This document shows, one piece after another, positions 17,821 through 23,375 of a stretch of DNA of 64,000 nt. Both the position numbers and the translations under genes were made by a program. Source of the DNA: Caulobacter sp. BK020 (GTDB lineage: Bacteria > Pseudomonadota > Alphaproteobacteria > Caulobacterales > Caulobacteraceae); contig NZ_SLZL01000002.1 of NCBI RefSeq assembly GCF_004342605.1, positions 248,001 through 312,000 of the forward strand. Direction: 5' to 3'. The notes under the pieces were generated by a model. It worked only from the letters and a program-made list of their open reading frames with translations, was not told where the DNA came from and searched no databases. The number at the start of each line of letters is the position of its first letter. Within the stretch, counting starts at the first letter, position 1.

Positions 17821-18570
17821 CTACACCTCGCCGCCGATCCGCTCGATCTCGTCGGCCAGGGCGGGCAGGTCGAGAACCCGCAGGGTGCGTCCGGTCTGGG
17901 ACACGATGCCGAGCCCGGCCAGCCGGTTCAGCTCCCGCGTCACCGGCTCGCGCTGGCTCCCCACCAGCACCGCCAGCTCGGCATGGGTCGGGCAGGGATG
18001 GATGACGGCTTCGCGGCCGTCTCCTCCCGCCGACGCCGCCATGCGCAGGAGTTCGATGTCGACGCGGCAGGCCACCGAGACGGCGTTCAGCTCGAACAGC
18101 CGATCGGTGAGGGCGCGAGTCAGATTGGCCAGATCCTCCAGGATCGCCCGCATGAAACGGGGCGACCGCTCGAACAGGGTCTGGACCAGCCCCTGGGGCA
18201 GGCGAGCAACCCGCACATCCTCCAGCGCCACGATGTTTACTGAACGCGGCAGGCCGTCGATGGCCGAGATCTCGCCGAAATAGCCGCCCGCCGAAATGCG
18301 CCGATAGCCGACCTCGCGGCCAGACCGGGCGTACTGGTTGGCCAGCAGCGCGCCCTTCAGCAGCAGGTGAATGCCGCCGCTATCATCCAGGCGTTGGACG
18401 ATCAGCTCGCCCTTGCCATAGTGAAGGTGCTCGATTTGTGGGGCCAGCGCCTCGATCTCCTCGCGCACCATGTGCCGGAACAGCCGGTTGGCGCGATAGT
18501 CGCCTTCTGGTGGAGACGTGATTGGCGTATGGCTCGGGGCGAGCGGGGACGAGGGGGGAATCACGGCCAT
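17821..18570 (-). CDS. Crp/Fnr-type cyclic-nucleotide-responsive regulator
   Basis: 249 residues from ATG 18570, preceded by AGGAG. The cyclic-nucleotide-binding beta-roll (about residues 35-125) keeps the phosphate-binding cassette FGEISAIDGLPRSVNIVA, with Gly99-Glu100 and Arg109-Ser110 in the positions that contact cAMP in Crp. It lacks the Cys set of Fnr. A dimer helix follows, then the winged helix (about 165-245), whose recognition helix reads Arg207-Glu208-P-V-T-Arg212, equal to the RExVxR of E. coli Crp that reads TGTG/CACA. The gene faces the TIR-cyclase operon across only 37 bases, and a TGTGC-N6-GCACA palindrome lies after that operon. It may read the nucleotide made by the neighbouring cyclase. 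Confidence 0.88.
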   Translation of the reverse strand: MAVIPPSSPLAPSHTPITSPPEGDYRANRLFRHMVREEIEALAPQIEHLHYGKGELIVQRLDDSGGIHLLLKGALLANQYARSGREVGYRRISAGGYFGEISAIDGLPRSVNIVALEDVRVARLPQGLVQTLFERSPRFMRAILEDLANLTRALTDRLFELNAVSVACRVDIELLRMAASAGGDGREAVIHPCPTHAELAVLVGSQREPVTRELNRLAGLGIVSQTGRTLRVLDLPALADEIERIGGEV

Positions 18571-18607
18571 CGAGAACGCTCCTGCACAGTCGATCCGGGG
18601 ACGACGA

Positions 18608-20671
18608 ATGGACAGCCGACCGCGCTACCGGGCCTTTATCAGCTATAGCCACCAGGACCGCAAAGCCGCCGAATGGCTGCATCGCGCGCTGGAAACCTAC
18701 CGCGCGCCGCGCCGCCTGACCACGAGCGGCGGCGCGGCGGCCATGCGGCGCCTGACGCCGATCTTCCGGGACCGCGACGAGCTGAGCGCCTCGCCGGACC
18801 TGGGCGGGGTGATCCGCGACGCGCTGGACCGTTCCGACGCCCTGATCGTGCTCTGTTCCCCGGCCTCGGCCGGGTCGCGCTGGGTGGACCAGGAGGCGGC
18901 CTACTTCCTGCGCGATCACGGTCTTGGCCAGATCATCTGCGTGATCGCGCCGACGACGCCGAAGGCGGCGCCCCTGGCTCAGGTGTTGCCTCCGGCCTTG
19001 CGGGCGGCCTTGCCGACGGGCGTGGAGCCTCTGGCCGTGGACCCGCGACGCGACGCCGACGGACCGCGCCTGGCGCGGCTGAAGATCGCCGCGCGGCTGC
19101 TGGACGTCAGCCTCGACCAACTGGTTCAGCGCGACGCTCGCCGCGGCGTGCGGGTGATGGCCGCCTTCACCACCGTGGCCTTGGCCGTGACCGTCGCGAT
19201 GGGCGCGATGACCGTCGCCACCCTGAAGTCCCGCCAGATCGCCCGCGACCAGCGCGACGAGACCGAGGCCCTGGTGGCCTACATGTTGGGCGATCTGCGC
19301 GAACAGCTGGAGCCGGTGGGCCGACTGGACGTCCTGGACGGCGTCGGCGCCAAGGTGCTGGCCTATTACGGCAAGGCGCGCACCGACCGCCTGGACGACC
19401 GGGCCTTGGCTCAGCGCGCGAAGGCCCAGACGCTGTTGGGCACGATCCGGGAACAGCGCGGCGACCTGGCCGGGGCTCGCGACGCGTTCGGCCAGGCCGC
19501 GGCCACGACCCACGAGCTGGCTCTCCGCGCCCCCAACAACGGCGAGCGCATCTTCGACGAGGCGCAGAACGTCTATTGGCTGGCCTATATGCAATGGCGT
19601 CAGGGCGACGAGGCCGGAGCCGAGCGCGGCTTCAAACATTACGGCGAACTGGCCCAGAAACTGGTGAGGCTTGACCCGACCCGCGCTGACTGGCGGCTGG
19701 AGGTCGCCTACGCCAAGAGCAATCTTGGCACCCTGTTACTGGAACAGGGGCGCGCGGAAGAGGCGCTGGCCACGTTCCGCGCCGCCTTGGCCGGCTTCGA
19801 GGCCGAACGGGCCCGGGCTCCCGATGATCAGGACCGCTTGGTCGACGCGGTGGACGCCCACGCCTGGGTGGCCGACTCCCTGGTCAAGCTGGGGCGTCCT
19901 CGTGAAGCCTATGCCGAGCGGGAGGGCGCGGCGGCCTTACTGGCCCGGGCCTCGGCCAAGGCGGCGTCCGACAAGCCGCTCGCGGCCCGCAGCCTCGCCG
20001 CCCAGCTGGCGCTAGCGCGGTTGGAGCTGGATCTGGGCCGGACCACGCGTGGCGCGGCGCGCTCGGCCCAGGCTCTAAGCGGGTTGCGCGAGCTGGTGGC
20101 CCTGGACCCGACCAACGCCCGCTGGCGCGAATACCTGTTGATCGGCCAGCTGGATGCGGTCGATTTCGCCGCCTGGTCGGGGCGACTGGGGCAGGCGCGC
20201 TCGGCCCAGGCCCAGGCCGCCGCCACTCTGGCCGGCCTTCGCACCGGCGACGAGGCCAAGACCTGGCGTGTCGACCTTGACGGGCGGCTGGACATGCAGG
20301 CGATCACCTTGGCGCGGCTCGACGGTGATCTGATGCGCGAACGGAGCCTGGCGCTGGCGCTGCTGGACCGATTGGACCACACGCCGGGATCGCGCGAAAC
20401 GGCGGCCGACCGCACGGCCCTCTATGGCGCAGCTCACCTGGCGGCGGGGCGGCCGGCGGCGGCGATCTCGACCCTGTCGCCGCGACGCGGGTCCCTGCCT
20501 TCGACCAGCCTCGACATCCTGGCGCGCGCCTACCAAGCCCAGGGCCAGTCAGACCAGGCCCAGGCGATTGTGACGAGCCTGCGAAAACAGGGCTATGCGC
20601 ATCCCGGTTTCCTTGCATTCTGGAGAGAGTCGCGCCCAGATGGCGCCGCTGTTCAAGGGGGTTTCACATGA
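18608..20671 (+). CDS. TIR domain - transmembrane - TPR protein
   Basis: 687 residues from ATG 18608. Residues 7-105 form a TIR domain: YRAFISYSHQDRKAAEWLH at strand A, FRDRDELSASPDL in the BB-loop region, and SRWVDQEAAYF with Glu97 at the usual catalytic glutamate of NAD-cleaving TIRs. One membrane helix spans about 183-205 (AAFTTVALAVTVAMGAM). The remaining ~480 residues are Ala/Leu-rich helical repeats of TPR type, for example LGTLLLEQGRAEEALATFRAALAGFEAE. TIR domains either consume NAD, make cyclic ADP-ribose-like signals or act as adaptors. The stop overlaps the next gene by four bases (ATGA). Similar TIR-TM-TPR proteins occur in many bacteria, mostly without assigned function. Confidence 0.85.
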   Translation: MDSRPRYRAFISYSHQDRKAAEWLHRALETYRAPRRLTTSGGAAAMRRLTPIFRDRDELSASPDLGGVIRDALDRSDALIVLCSPASAGSRWVDQEAAYFLRDHGLGQIICVIAPTTPKAAPLAQVLPPALRAALPTGVEPLAVDPRRDADGPRLARLKIAARLLDVSLDQLVQRDARRGVRVMAAFTTVALAVTVAMGAMTVATLKSRQIARDQRDETEALVAYMLGDLREQLEPVGRLDVLDGVGAKVLAYYGKARTDRLDDRALAQRAKAQTLLGTIREQRGDLAGARDAFGQAAATTHELALRAPNNGERIFDEAQNVYWLAYMQWRQGDEAGAERGFKHYGELAQKLVRLDPTRADWRLEVAYAKSNLGTLLLEQGRAEEALATFRAALAGFEAERARAPDDQDRLVDAVDAHAWVADSLVKLGRPREAYAEREGAAALLARASAKAASDKPLAARSLAAQLALARLELDLGRTTRGAARSAQALSGLRELVALDPTNARWREYLLIGQLDAVDFAAWSGRLGQARSAQAQAAATLAGLRTGDEAKTWRVDLDGRLDMQAITLARLDGDLMRERSLALALLDRLDHTPGSRETAADRTALYGAAHLAAGRPAAAISTLSPRRGSLPSTSLDILARAYQAQGQSDQAQAIVTSLRKQGYAHPGFLAFWRESRPDGAAVQGGFT

Positions 20672-21066
20672 CCGAGCCACTACCGATCGTCGAACTGGTC
20701 GTCGGCATCGCCGACAACATCAACTTCATGAACGTTCTCGATCCCCAGAATCCGATTCCGCTGTCGTTGAAACTCGACGCTCCGAGCCGATTGGTCTTCC
20801 GGTTGAGCGATGAGCTCATCCGTGTCGGCTGGACATTTCAGAAGCGTCCGATCCTCTTTACGGACGATTTCGGCATCAACTTCTCCAGCTACACCTGGAT
20901 CGAGCTGCTGTACGACGTGCCGCAAAAGCCCTTCACGTGCTTCATGATCGACTATGAAGACAATCGGGTCGGCGAATACATCTACAGCCTGTTCATGACC
21001 GACTCGCACAGGCAGAACATTATTCTGGACCCGAAGATCGAAAACGGCGGGGGCAAGGTGCCCTGA
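20668..21066 (+). CDS. Unknown 132-residue protein between TIR and cyclase genes
   Basis: 132 residues from ATG 20668, overlapping the TIR gene stop by four bases, which implies translational coupling. It has no signal peptide, membrane helix or recognisable domain. The composition differs from the flanking proteins: more Asp, Phe, Ile and Asn (segments such as LVVGIADNINFMNVL and FGINFSSYTWIELLYDV), predicting a compact beta-rich globular fold, and a C terminus ending NGGGKVP. Its fixed place inside the operon suggests a partner, sensor or inhibitor of the TIR or cyclase protein. No function is claimed. Confidence 0.75.
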   Translation: MTEPLPIVELVVGIADNINFMNVLDPQNPIPLSLKLDAPSRLVFRLSDELIRVGWTFQKRPILFTDDFGINFSSYTWIELLYDVPQKPFTCFMIDYEDNRVGEYIYSLFMTDSHRQNIILDPKIENGGGKVP

Positions 21067-22835
21067 CCCTCACGGTCTTCGACCAGAACGAGGTCGCCGG
21101 GCTGATCCAACGCGGTGAGATACTCGCCGCCTACGACCTCGCCCGCGCCGCCCTGGACGCCGGCGAGGTCTCGCGTGACGCCGCCTACGCTGTGGTGCTC
21201 TGCCTGGCGCGAACCGGAGCCGTGGATTTCGCCCGGGCCGAATATGTCCGCCTGGGACTGGACCGAGCGGGCGACGACCCCGACGCTATCGCCCTGGGCG
21301 CACGGCTCCTGAAGGATGTCGCCTTGGCCGCACGCGGTCCTCGCCGCGCAGCTTTCGCCCGGGCTTCGACGCGTCGCTATCAGTCGCTCTTCCAGCGGTT
21401 CGGCGGCCTCTACGGCGCCGTCAACGCGGCGACCATGACACTGGTCGCCGGCGACCGGCAGGGCGGCCAAGCCTTGGCGACCGCCGCCCTGGCGATTCCG
21501 CCGCCGGTGGGACTGACCGGAGAGGCCGCCTATTACGAGACGGCCAGTCGGGCCGAGGCGAGTTTCCTGCTCGGTGATCTGGACGCCGCGCGCGAGGCGA
21601 TGGACCGGGCTCAGGCCTGCGCGCCCCGGGCTTTCGCGGCCCATGCCTCGACGCTGCGCCAACTGGAAATGCTGTGCCGTGAGACGGGCGTCGATCCGGC
21701 CTGGCTGTCAGCCTTCCGGCCGCCGGCCTGCGCCCATTTCACCGGCCACATCCTGGACGCCACACGGGAGGGCGCCTTGAGCGGCGGGCTCGACAGCAAC
21801 CTGCGTCGCGAGGCGGACCGCGTGGTTCGGGAGCAGGGGATCGGTTTCGCTTACGGCGGTTTGGCCGCCGGCGCCGACATCGTCTTCGCCGAAGCCTTGC
21901 TGGAAGCCGGCGCTGAGCTTCACCTTGTCCTGCCCGTGAACCGGGAGTCCTTCGTCGCCGTGTCGGTCGCGCCCTTCGGACCCGACTGGATTCAACGGTT
22001 CGAGCATTGTTTCGCCCACGCCGCCTCGGTGCGCTACGCCTCGCAAGACCCCTATGTCGGCGACGAGCAGGTCTTCGCCTACGCCAGCCAGATCGCCATG
22101 GGCTGTGCGGTGCTGCGCGCCCAGACCTTGGCGACCGAGGCGGTCCAGGTGGGGGTCTGGGATGGCCATCCGGCCGCGGGACCGGCGGGGGTGGCGGTGG
22201 ATCTCGCCTATTGGGCGAAAGGCGGCCGTCGGCAGGAGATCATAACAGTCCGACGCCCGCCGCCGTCCCACGCGCCGCCGCCACGCGTGGGCCAGCCCGG
22301 CTCACGCGCCATGAAAGCCATGCTGTTCGCCGACGTGAAGGGCTTCGGGTCTCTACGCGACGACCAGATTCCCGCCTTCTTCGAGACGGTGATGGGACGG
22401 ATGGCCGAGGTCGTCGAAGGACTCGACGCTGGTCCCCGGCACGTCGAGACCTGGGGCGACGGCCTGTTTCTGGTCTTCGACCAGCCGATCGACGCCGCCC
22501 TCGCGGCCTTGGCGTTGCAGGAGGCTCACCGCGCCCTGGATCTTCGGGCCCTGGGCCTGCCGCGCGGCCTGGGCCTGCGGATCGGCGGTCACTACGGCCC
22601 GGTGCACCTGGGGGCCAATCCGCTGACCAGGACCCCGGCCGTGATCGGCGCCCACGTGGTGGTCGCCGCGCGCATCGAGCCCGATGTCGCGCCCGGATCG
22701 GCCTGTGTCAGCGAAGCCCTGGCTGGTGCGCTGGCCACCTTCCACGGCGACCGGGTGCGCTGCGGCTATGTCGGCCGCACCCAGGGGCGCAAGGGCTTTC
22801 CGGCGACCCCGATCTTCAACCTGGCTCGGGCCTGA
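21063..22835 (+). CDS. Helical repeat - SLOG-like - class III nucleotidyl cyclase protein
   Basis: About 590 residues if translation begins at CTG 21063, which overlaps the previous stop as CTGA and follows GGGGGCAAGG. The first standard start is GTG 21192, but clearly coding sequence (AYDLARAALDAGE) precedes it. From CTG: helical TPR-like repeats (1-210), then a Rossmann-like region (about 222-365) with GHILDATREG, GGLAAGADIVFAEALLEAGAELHLVLP, resembling SLOG/LOG nucleotide-sensor domains. Residues 417-590 form a class III cyclase domain: metal Asp424 (FADVKGFG), Asp466 (TWGDGLF) and Arg537 (AARIEP). The transition-state Asn expected in VNxAxR is Val533. The product may be cAMP, cGMP or another nucleotide, or the domain may have lost activity. 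Confidence 0.8.
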   Translation: MTLTVFDQNEVAGLIQRGEILAAYDLARAALDAGEVSRDAAYAVVLCLARTGAVDFARAEYVRLGLDRAGDDPDAIALGARLLKDVALAARGPRRAAFARASTRRYQSLFQRFGGLYGAVNAATMTLVAGDRQGGQALATAALAIPPPVGLTGEAAYYETASRAEASFLLGDLDAAREAMDRAQACAPRAFAAHASTLRQLEMLCRETGVDPAWLSAFRPPACAHFTGHILDATREGALSGGLDSNLRREADRVVREQGIGFAYGGLAAGADIVFAEALLEAGAELHLVLPVNRESFVAVSVAPFGPDWIQRFEHCFAHAASVRYASQDPYVGDEQVFAYASQIAMGCAVLRAQTLATEAVQVGVWDGHPAAGPAGVAVDLAYWAKGGRRQEIITVRRPPPSHAPPPRVGQPGSRAMKAMLFADVKGFGSLRDDQIPAFFETVMGRMAEVVEGLDAGPRHVETWGDGLFLVFDQPIDAALAALALQEAHRALDLRALGLPRGLGLRIGGHYGPVHLGANPLTRTPAVIGAHVVVAARIEPDVAPGSACVSEALAGALATFHGDRVRCGYVGRTQGRKGFPATPIFNLARA

Positions 22836-23147: not shown

Positions 23148-23375
23148 ATGTCTCTCGACGCAGCTGTCATCAAGGAATTTCGGGCCGCCGACGACGCGCG
23201 CCCCGGCGCGCTCGCCTCCGACCCTGCCGCAAGCATCCTCAAGCACGCCGTAAGGATCTGGGCGCGCGACCACGGCGTGGCCGAAACCGACCTGACCCGC
23301 GTGGCGGAAATGGTCATGGGTTTCGCGAAGTCGGCGGTCCGCGACTGCGAGCGCAAGATCCATGTCGTCGCCTGA
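23148..23375 (+). CDS. Small unknown protein (75 residues)
   Basis: ATG 23148 follows CAGGAA; the frame is open further upstream but without a better start. The product is 75 residues, mildly acidic at the N terminus and mainly helical (IKEFRAADDARPG, ILKHAVRIWARDHGV, VAEMVMGFAKSAV), with no signal peptide. It overlaps the next gene by 14 bases, so the two are probably translated together. It is the first coding sequence after the Crp-type palindrome. No family recognised; codon use is similar to its neighbours, supporting a real gene. Confidence 0.55.
   Translation: MSLDAAVIKEFRAADDARPGALASDPAASILKHAVRIWARDHGVAETDLTRVAEMVMGFAKSAVRDCERKIHVVA

Follow-up and report, generated by a model that had tools for sequence, protein, structure and literature searches.

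A four-gene TIR, class III cyclase and Crp-like locus of Caulobacter, inherited as one unit in two gene orders, may form a signalling module of two halves

In this study, we analysed a stretch of 64,000 nucleotides from Caulobacter sp. BK020 (RefSeq assembly GCF_004342605.1, contig NZ_SLZL01000002.1, positions 248,001 to 312,000; hereafter the window, from a genome of 5.13 Mb). Within it, four adjacent genes encode a Crp-like regulator, a TIR protein with a transmembrane (TM) segment and TPR repeats, a middle protein of 132 amino acids (aa) and a third protein joining TPR-S, SLOG-like and class III cyclase domains. An original prediction made from the sequence had placed the four genes at positions where all of them were confirmed (Table 1). 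We found that they are one inherited unit, present all or none in the set of loci closest to that of the window, and that they occur in two gene orders. We further propose, with a probability of about one half, that they form a self-contained signalling module of two half-modules, in which a TIR input would act on a cyclase/Crp output.

A search of 199 Caulobacteraceae genomes for the third protein gave a match in 47 of them, and the surroundings of all matches were collected except those of the two weakest (genomes G092 and G038). Contigs were also scanned with the family alignment, the best 80 of 290 relatives being retained. Loci and genomes are designated by L and G numbers, and class A comprises loci whose third protein is 59-100 % identical to that of the window. 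The order Crp, TIR, 132-aa gene, cyclase was identical in 24/24 class A loci, a layout that is not due to chance. Among the 39 genomes listed for the same genus, 24 carried all four genes, six the second type only (described below) and nine none. Each of the 24 class A genomes had the 132-aa gene, a Crp orthologue (identity of at least 55 %) and a full-length TIR gene. The nine genomes without a cyclase match had no 132-aa gene, no Crp at an E-value of 1e-10 and no full-length TIR, one of them (G158) giving a weak partial TIR match, and in none of the 39 was a class A Crp or 132-aa gene present without its partners. The view of the original prediction that these genes form one module thus stood up to the survey of co-occurrence, with one order in all class A loci and all-or-none presence in the genus. 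Class A forms one clade of the cyclase tree, L084 being inside it. The module is carried by strain DSM 9893 (L088) of Caulobacter vibrioides, a laboratory species, and the class A order was also found in Sphingomonas echinoides (L098) and in a Sphingomonadales genome (L100) whose middle gene gave a weak match (1e-7).

In the second order, the TIR, middle and cyclase genes are followed downstream by a convergent Crp gene. This arrangement of Crp was seen in 10 of the best 80 relatives, i.e. in Kordiimonas and kin, Maricaulis, Woodsholea, one Sphingomonadales genome and two genomes named only Proteobacteria or Alphaproteobacteria; the TIR gene lay upstream in seven of them and the contig begins nearby in the other three. 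Twelve Caulobacteraceae loci also had the second order, with TIR upstream in 11/12 (in pieces in L045) and Crp present in 12/12. Every second-order locus examined that held both TIR and cyclase genes had a small open frame between them.

The surroundings of the module vary: the nearest called genes beyond Crp fell into 13 clusters in the 24 class A loci, and those of the right-hand flank into four when a 75-aa open reading frame (ORF), for which there was no Pfam match, was left out. Location in a defence island was considered and rejected, as no PADLOC match was obtained at 1e-5 for ten outer neighbours scanned on the left side (nine of the 13 nearest-left clusters and the second neighbour in L052); the ten outer neighbours typed by Pfam were ordinary transport, envelope, regulatory and metabolic genes. 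Mobile carriage was likewise rejected: plasmid records gave four partial matches to the cyclase protein, none covering 80 % of it, and the single tRNA among 25 loci scanned lies inside the TIR gene of L065.

A natural experiment on the wiring of the module is offered by a clade in which the cyclase motif and the Crp cassette have both been lost. Both metal-binding Asp residues of the cyclase were kept in 30/30 class A sequences and in 10/10 intact second-order loci, the latter also keeping the Glu and Arg of the Crp cassette (10/10). In the 12 Caulobacteraceae loci of second order, the WGD motif of the cyclase and the cassette Glu and Arg were all lost (12/12 for each gene). These loci form one clade of the cyclase tree (support 100), termed here the decayed clade. 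By hhalign (99.4 %, E 4.8e-22), the last domain of their third proteins is a cyclase that has decayed. Other residues are kept, namely the SxWxxxE motif in 11/11 TIRs examined, nine conserved SLOG-like residues in 12/12 loci and H287 in 11/12. Median identities to the window's protein were 37 % (TPR-S), 40 % (SLOG-like) and 25 % (cyclase, with a fraction of 0.86 aligned) in the decayed clade, and 38 %, 40 % and 45 %, respectively, in the intact second-order group. As read from these residues, the joint loss would pair the cyclase with Crp and set TIR and the SLOG-like part upstream or apart.

The Pfam family pNTSase1 (PF20301, 'predicted novel nucleotide synthetase'), which the middle protein of the second-order locus L041 matches at 1.7e-44, was found at nine places in 8/199 genomes. 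Seven were at decayed-clade loci, so that five of the 12 are unseen by this model, and two were elsewhere; each of the two has a TIR gene of the family next to it, and within 9 kb neither a cyclase nor a Crp of the kinds described was marked. G150 holds the TIR and middle genes as a pair (L183), and its cyclase and Crp genes form a locus of their own elsewhere (L046). An additional TIR, with pNTSase1 matched next to it, occurs in G047 (L184). TIR with the middle gene, and cyclase with Crp, can thus be regarded as two separable halves.

The residues of the output half in the window are compatible with cyclic-nucleotide signalling. The cyclase domain has both metal Asp of class III enzymes (Asp424 and Asp466), and its base positions carry Glu for Lys and Ala for Asp, a Glu-Ala pair which is of guanylyl-cyclase type according to the accessible part of PMC4215837. 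At the transition-state positions, the usual pair of Asn and Arg is represented by Val and Arg. The best profile match in the PDB is a guanylyl cyclase, and so is the best Foldseek match, Cya2. The Crp-like protein matches cNMP_binding (7.3e-15) and HTH_Crp_2 (5.2e-11), and its cassette (G99-E100...P108-R109-S110) is intact, as the original prediction had stated; the Glu and Arg are kept by every class A Crp read (L056 left out). The pockets of the cyclase and of Crp are likewise intact at the level of residues. Crp has Leu-Thr where E. coli has T127-S128, residues that gave no clue to base specificity. Its PADLOC matches (PycTIR, 5.3e-07; a TIR effector model, 1.5e-07) both span the cyclic-nucleotide-binding (CNB) region only. 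Six HTH_Crp_2 matches exceed the cut-off in the window's genome. The next-nearest Crp relatives in class A genomes (E 1e-10; 36 % and 40 % identity) both lie near other class III cyclases: in L196 (4102-7950), the relative is divergent from and adjoins a class III cyclase-AAA_16 protein, and in L195 (7132-11613) it is two small open frames away from such a protein.

As to the input half, the TIR protein matches TIR_2 (1.6e-12) and ThsB_TIR (3.1e-10), its TPR matches are weak, and no cyclic-nucleotide domain was matched in Pfam. PADLOC gave a weak ThsB match (0.0058) and a match to the SAVED_TIR model (5.5e-06) in the TIR part only. One TIR_2 protein exceeds the cut-off in the window's genome. 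Two observations on TIR genes elsewhere deserve mention: beside L045 (G182:C1:3614024-3615852) the match to the second-order TIR gene is split into three, the genome carrying a class A module as well, and the Kordiimonas module L107 has a second TIR domain match 4580 bases past the start of the cyclase match, perhaps another input pair.

In the mechanism that we propose, the TIR-TPR protein, anchored in the membrane, and a fast-evolving partner of predicted beta-sandwich fold, forming the input half, would sense a trigger, upon which the TIR domain would turn NAD+ into a nucleotide signal. In the output half, the TPR-S/SLOG-like part would bind this signal and switch on the fused class III cyclase, whose product (cGMP is predicted for the lineage of the window) would be read by the dedicated Crp-like regulator. 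Crp would then regulate the divergent operon at least, and perhaps further genes; a GTCG...CGAC repeat seen by eye in the Crp-TIR gap of several class A loci, overlapping the TIR ribosome site, is a putative operator. We infer the direction from TIR to SLOG, the identities of the nucleotides and the purpose of the module (immunity or stress). The original prediction had proposed the reverse course, nucleotide synthesis followed by TIR activation, which fits less well: the TIR and SLOG-like parts outlast the loss of the cyclase motif and of the Crp cassette, and TIR has no nucleotide-binding domain. The most specific version of our proposal is a two-messenger relay, leading from a NAD+-derived TIR signal through the TPR-S/SLOG receptor and the fused guanylyl-type cyclase to cGMP and Crp, with a self-processing beta-sandwich protein as trigger; taken whole, it is rather unlikely. 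If true, it would link the chemistry of TIR immunity with gene control of the classical Crp kind, and would illustrate the conversion of TIR signals into a gene-expression programme.

Several points weigh against the two-half module. Since the 12 decayed loci form one clade, the coupled loss counts as one event, and as this clade retains both genes, they must have some function without a cyclic nucleotide. The loss is also uneven: an Asp is aligned at the first metal column in 9/12 decayed loci and at the second in 2/12 (L040 and L046), L040 having both, and the transition-state Arg is still present in 4/12, the residual Asp sitting in a poorly alignable stretch without FxDxxGF and WGD contexts. 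In L037, the Crp-like gene next to an intact cyclase has a D/R cassette. Of the 107 non-redundant cyclase proteins in the tree, 55 are labelled as having no adjacent Crp, a count that includes L084 and L112 (contig ends), L037 (Crp-like neighbour) and L139 (upstream, a weak Crp-like match). In several of these 55, chiefly from Phenylobacterium, a TIR gene lies close by in convergent orientation. For the Crp genes of both orders, a common origin was neither shown nor rejected (p-AU 0.253). The window's cyclase has Val in place of the usual transition-state Asn, which does not rule out activity because the active cyclase Ma1120 has Ala at this position (PMC4215837, accessible part). PF00211 detected no cyclase in the window's genome at E 1e-3 and missed the window's own as well, and therefore gives no proof that this is the sole cyclase. 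Finally, the making of a signal by TIR and its binding by the SLOG-like part are both predictions.

Foremost among the alternatives, and itself tentative, is a non-immune stress or developmental circuit resembling the cGMP-CgrA cyst trigger of Rhodospirillum centenum. Guanylyl-type residues beside a linked Crp would suit such a circuit, as would the ordinary Pfam types of ten outer neighbours, the lack of PADLOC matches at 1e-5 (0/10) and of any plasmid record with 80 % of the cyclase protein. In R. centenum, a cGMP-reading Crp is clustered with gcyB-gcyC under feed-forward control and cGMP-CgrA triggers cyst formation (PMC4681086, accessible part). Against it stand the scattered distribution in a single genus, where the genes are present all or none, the very rapid evolution of the middle gene, and the TIR and SLOG domains, typical of NAD+ conflict systems in the available portion of PMC9503650. 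TPR-S, too, has a context typical of NAD+ conflict systems. Only the kinds of domain and the rapid change of the middle gene argue for conflict, which makes immunity plausible; by analogy with CgrA, a stress or developmental role would be about as likely.

It is doubtful that TIR is instead the effector, i.e. that the SLOG/TPR-S part senses a cue and activates the cyclase, whereupon Crp induces the TIR operon and NAD+ depletion stops growth. The divergent Crp and TIR genes of the window, 37 bases apart, and the conserved TIR glutamate agree with this course of events, and the TIR proteins of Pycsar deplete NAD+ (PMC11224242, accessible part). In the second order, however, the convergent Crp gene lies at the opposite end of the locus, away from where TIR starts, and the TIR and middle genes persist without the cyclase motif and Crp cassette, also as a separate pair.

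Less likely again, the cyclase fold might serve as a protein-contact domain binding Crp directly in the decayed clade, perhaps ancestrally, the cyclic nucleotide being an added layer. After loss of motif and cassette, all 12 loci indeed keep the cyclase fold and an adjacent convergent Crp, but the strong decay of this domain (median identity of 25 % vs 45 %) is what relaxed selection would produce. Mere vertical linkage of four unrelated genes through slow rearrangement, to which the single class A clade and the four right-hand clusters would lend themselves, is very improbable and was rejected in its pure form in view of the changing left flanks, which form 13 clusters among the 24 loci, the existence of two gene orders, the all-or-none presence and the overlapping reading frames of the window.

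These overlaps, together with the other features of the module, are located in Table 1. The TIR gene starts at the ATG at 18608, and its stop overlaps the start of the 132-aa gene (ATGA, 20668-20671).

Table 1. Location of the module and its features (positions in the window; basis or remark as recorded)
Feature	Position	Strand	Basis or remark
Crp/Fnr-like regulator, CNB domain and HTH_Crp_2	17821..18570	-	intact cassette G99 E100 ... P108 R109 S110
Gap between divergent Crp and TIR genes, 37 bases	18571..18607	.	sequence
TIR-TM-TPR protein, 687 aa	18608..20671	+	ORF, Pfam
TIR domain, residues 10-116, conserved S90-x-W92-V93-x-x-E96	18635..18955	+	Pfam, alignment
Hydrophobic, probable transmembrane segment, about residues 183-206	19154..19225	+	read from sequence
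Fast-evolving 132-aa middle protein, predicted PixA/MakD/SO1698-type beta sandwich	20668..21066	+	ORF, model
Asp121-Pro122 codons near the C-terminus of the middle protein, invariant in alignment A7	21028..21033	+	
TPR-S/SLOG-like/class III cyclase protein, 590 aa if CTG 21063 is the start	21063..22835	+	
CTGA overlap, proposed non-ATG start on the stop bases of the middle gene	21063..21066	+	
TPR-S sensor domain, residues 23-125	21129..21437	+	Pfam
SLOG-like domain, alternating strand/helix, about residues 219-400	21717..22262	+	model and conserved residues
Class III cyclase domain, residues 412-590	22296..22832	+	profile, alignment, structure matches
75-aa ORF downstream of the cyclase gene, module membership uncertain	23148..23375	+	relatives called in 15/24 class A loci

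The third gene probably starts about 43 codons before its first ATG, GTG or TTG, at a CTG sharing bases with the stop of the previous gene. The frame open from 21063 contains none of these three codons before codon 44; an earlier, non-ATG start is favoured because the N-terminal part is covered by homologues, which align over 99 % of the 590 residues, and by the predicted fold, which is confident from about residue 10. Several database entries begin about 43 codons later (93 % coverage). A CTG overlapping the stop (CTGA) was found in 10/24 class A loci (the window and L051-L059), and a TTG (TTGA) in L065; in L066-L073 an in-frame CTG follows directly after the stop, L060-L064 have an ATG near it, and an ATG or GTG stands a few codons further along in L054-L056. 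Alternatively, the frame might be entered by a frameshift from the 132-aa gene.

All parts foreseen in this protein by the original prediction (helical repeats, SLOG-like and cyclase domains) were found, the helical part being refined to the TPR-S family (PF20308, 27.6 bits, equal to the cut-off; Guanylate_cyc scored 22.7 bits for a cut-off of 21.9). Two relatives scored 33.1 and 35.9 bits for TPR-S, and L098 scored 24.8, below the cut-off. The TPR part (positions 62-174 of the A6 profile) matches human ASK1/MAP3K5 in the PDB (5ulm, E 2.6e-4), and two relatives match MAP3K_TRAF_bd. The 'SLOG-like' designation is based on the strand-helix pattern of the structural model and on known motifs, with conserved residues G265, G270, D272, E277, P291, S301, W309, G347 and Q362; among the Foldseek and VIA rows listed for the whole protein, which were filled by its cyclase part, this part had no structural match of its own.

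The middle protein of the window matched nothing in Pfam, NCBIfam, PADLOC or PHROG, and pNTSase1 matched neither this protein, at E up to 1, nor anything else in the window's genome. Structure prediction, the check suggested for this protein, returned a beta sandwich, the nearest folds being SO1698 (10-13 % identity) and MakD/PixA. Its gene evolves fast, with a median identity of 16.8-22.5 % where the cyclase protein has 39.7-45.3 %. Alignment of the two middle-protein profiles by hhalign gave an E-value of 8e-5 yet a probability of 61 %; its 104 columns take in the DP stretch near the C-terminus. The predicted fold of the class A middle protein does not support the 'nucleotide synthetase' label of pNTSase1, which deserves re-examination. 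SO1698 (DUF1888), MakD and PixA share the beta-sandwich fold predicted for the 132-aa protein, in which the Asp-Pro itself is seen. SO1698 reportedly cleaves itself between Asp116 and Pro117 (JBC 2012); cleavage at the Asp-Pro of the 132-aa protein is hypothetical.

CBASS, Thoeris and Pycsar pass one messenger to a killing effector. The original prediction had matched the gene set to none of the three, and both their membership criteria and PADLOC, which named no known system for the four proteins, agree. CBASS was rejected since no CD-NTase was matched in the four proteins by PADLOC or by Pfam at E up to 1. A likeness to Thoeris lies in the TIR protein, of ThsB type by its ThsB_TIR match, beside a protein with a SLOG-like domain; here, however, that domain is fused to TPR-S and cyclase domains, and Thoeris was rejected as no SIR2, Macro or other ThsA effector was matched (Pfam, PADLOC). 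A Pycsar locus likewise encodes a class III-type cyclase together with a TIR domain and a reader of cyclic nucleotides. It differs in that here the nucleotide-binding domain is fused to the DNA-binding HTH_Crp_2 rather than to TIR or TM, TIR is a separate protein and the base-position residues of the cyclase are of guanylyl type; Pycsar was rejected, the TIR protein having no CNB match and so no fused CNB-TIR/TM effector being present. As regards the pyrimidine-specific PycC cyclase of Pycsar, the cyclase of the window had no PADLOC match, and its Glu-Ala pair resembles that of guanylyl cyclases. CgrA-gcy of R. centenum likewise links guanylyl cyclase genes to a homologue of Crp, under feed-forward control, whereas the accessible part of PMC4681086 mentions no TIR, SLOG or middle gene.

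The closest likeness may be to the conflict systems built on TPR-S and NAD+-derived signals, through PF20308 in the window's protein, at the cut-off and with a predicted NAD+-derived ligand, and through PF20301 in second-order middle genes. Both Pfam families presumably stem from Burroughs and Aravind 2020 (J Bacteriol e00365-20), who are said to have predicted a TPR scaffold reading NAD+-derived signals and to have described systems built on 3'-5' cyclic mononucleotides. They probably list the components of the module, perhaps as one system. Among the matches listed by our literature search, no title concerned this gene set, and that likeliest prior source, cited in the accessible parts of PMC7824862 and PMC8195603, was outside its reach. 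We treat the general kind of system as known. What we add is the description of both gene orders, of the joint decay of cyclase and Crp, of the guanylyl-type base residues and of the predicted fold of the middle protein, and some of this may already be in that paper. Compared with the known systems, the module combines parts of NAD+ signalling (TIR, SLOG-like, TPR-S) with a cyclase and a transcription factor.

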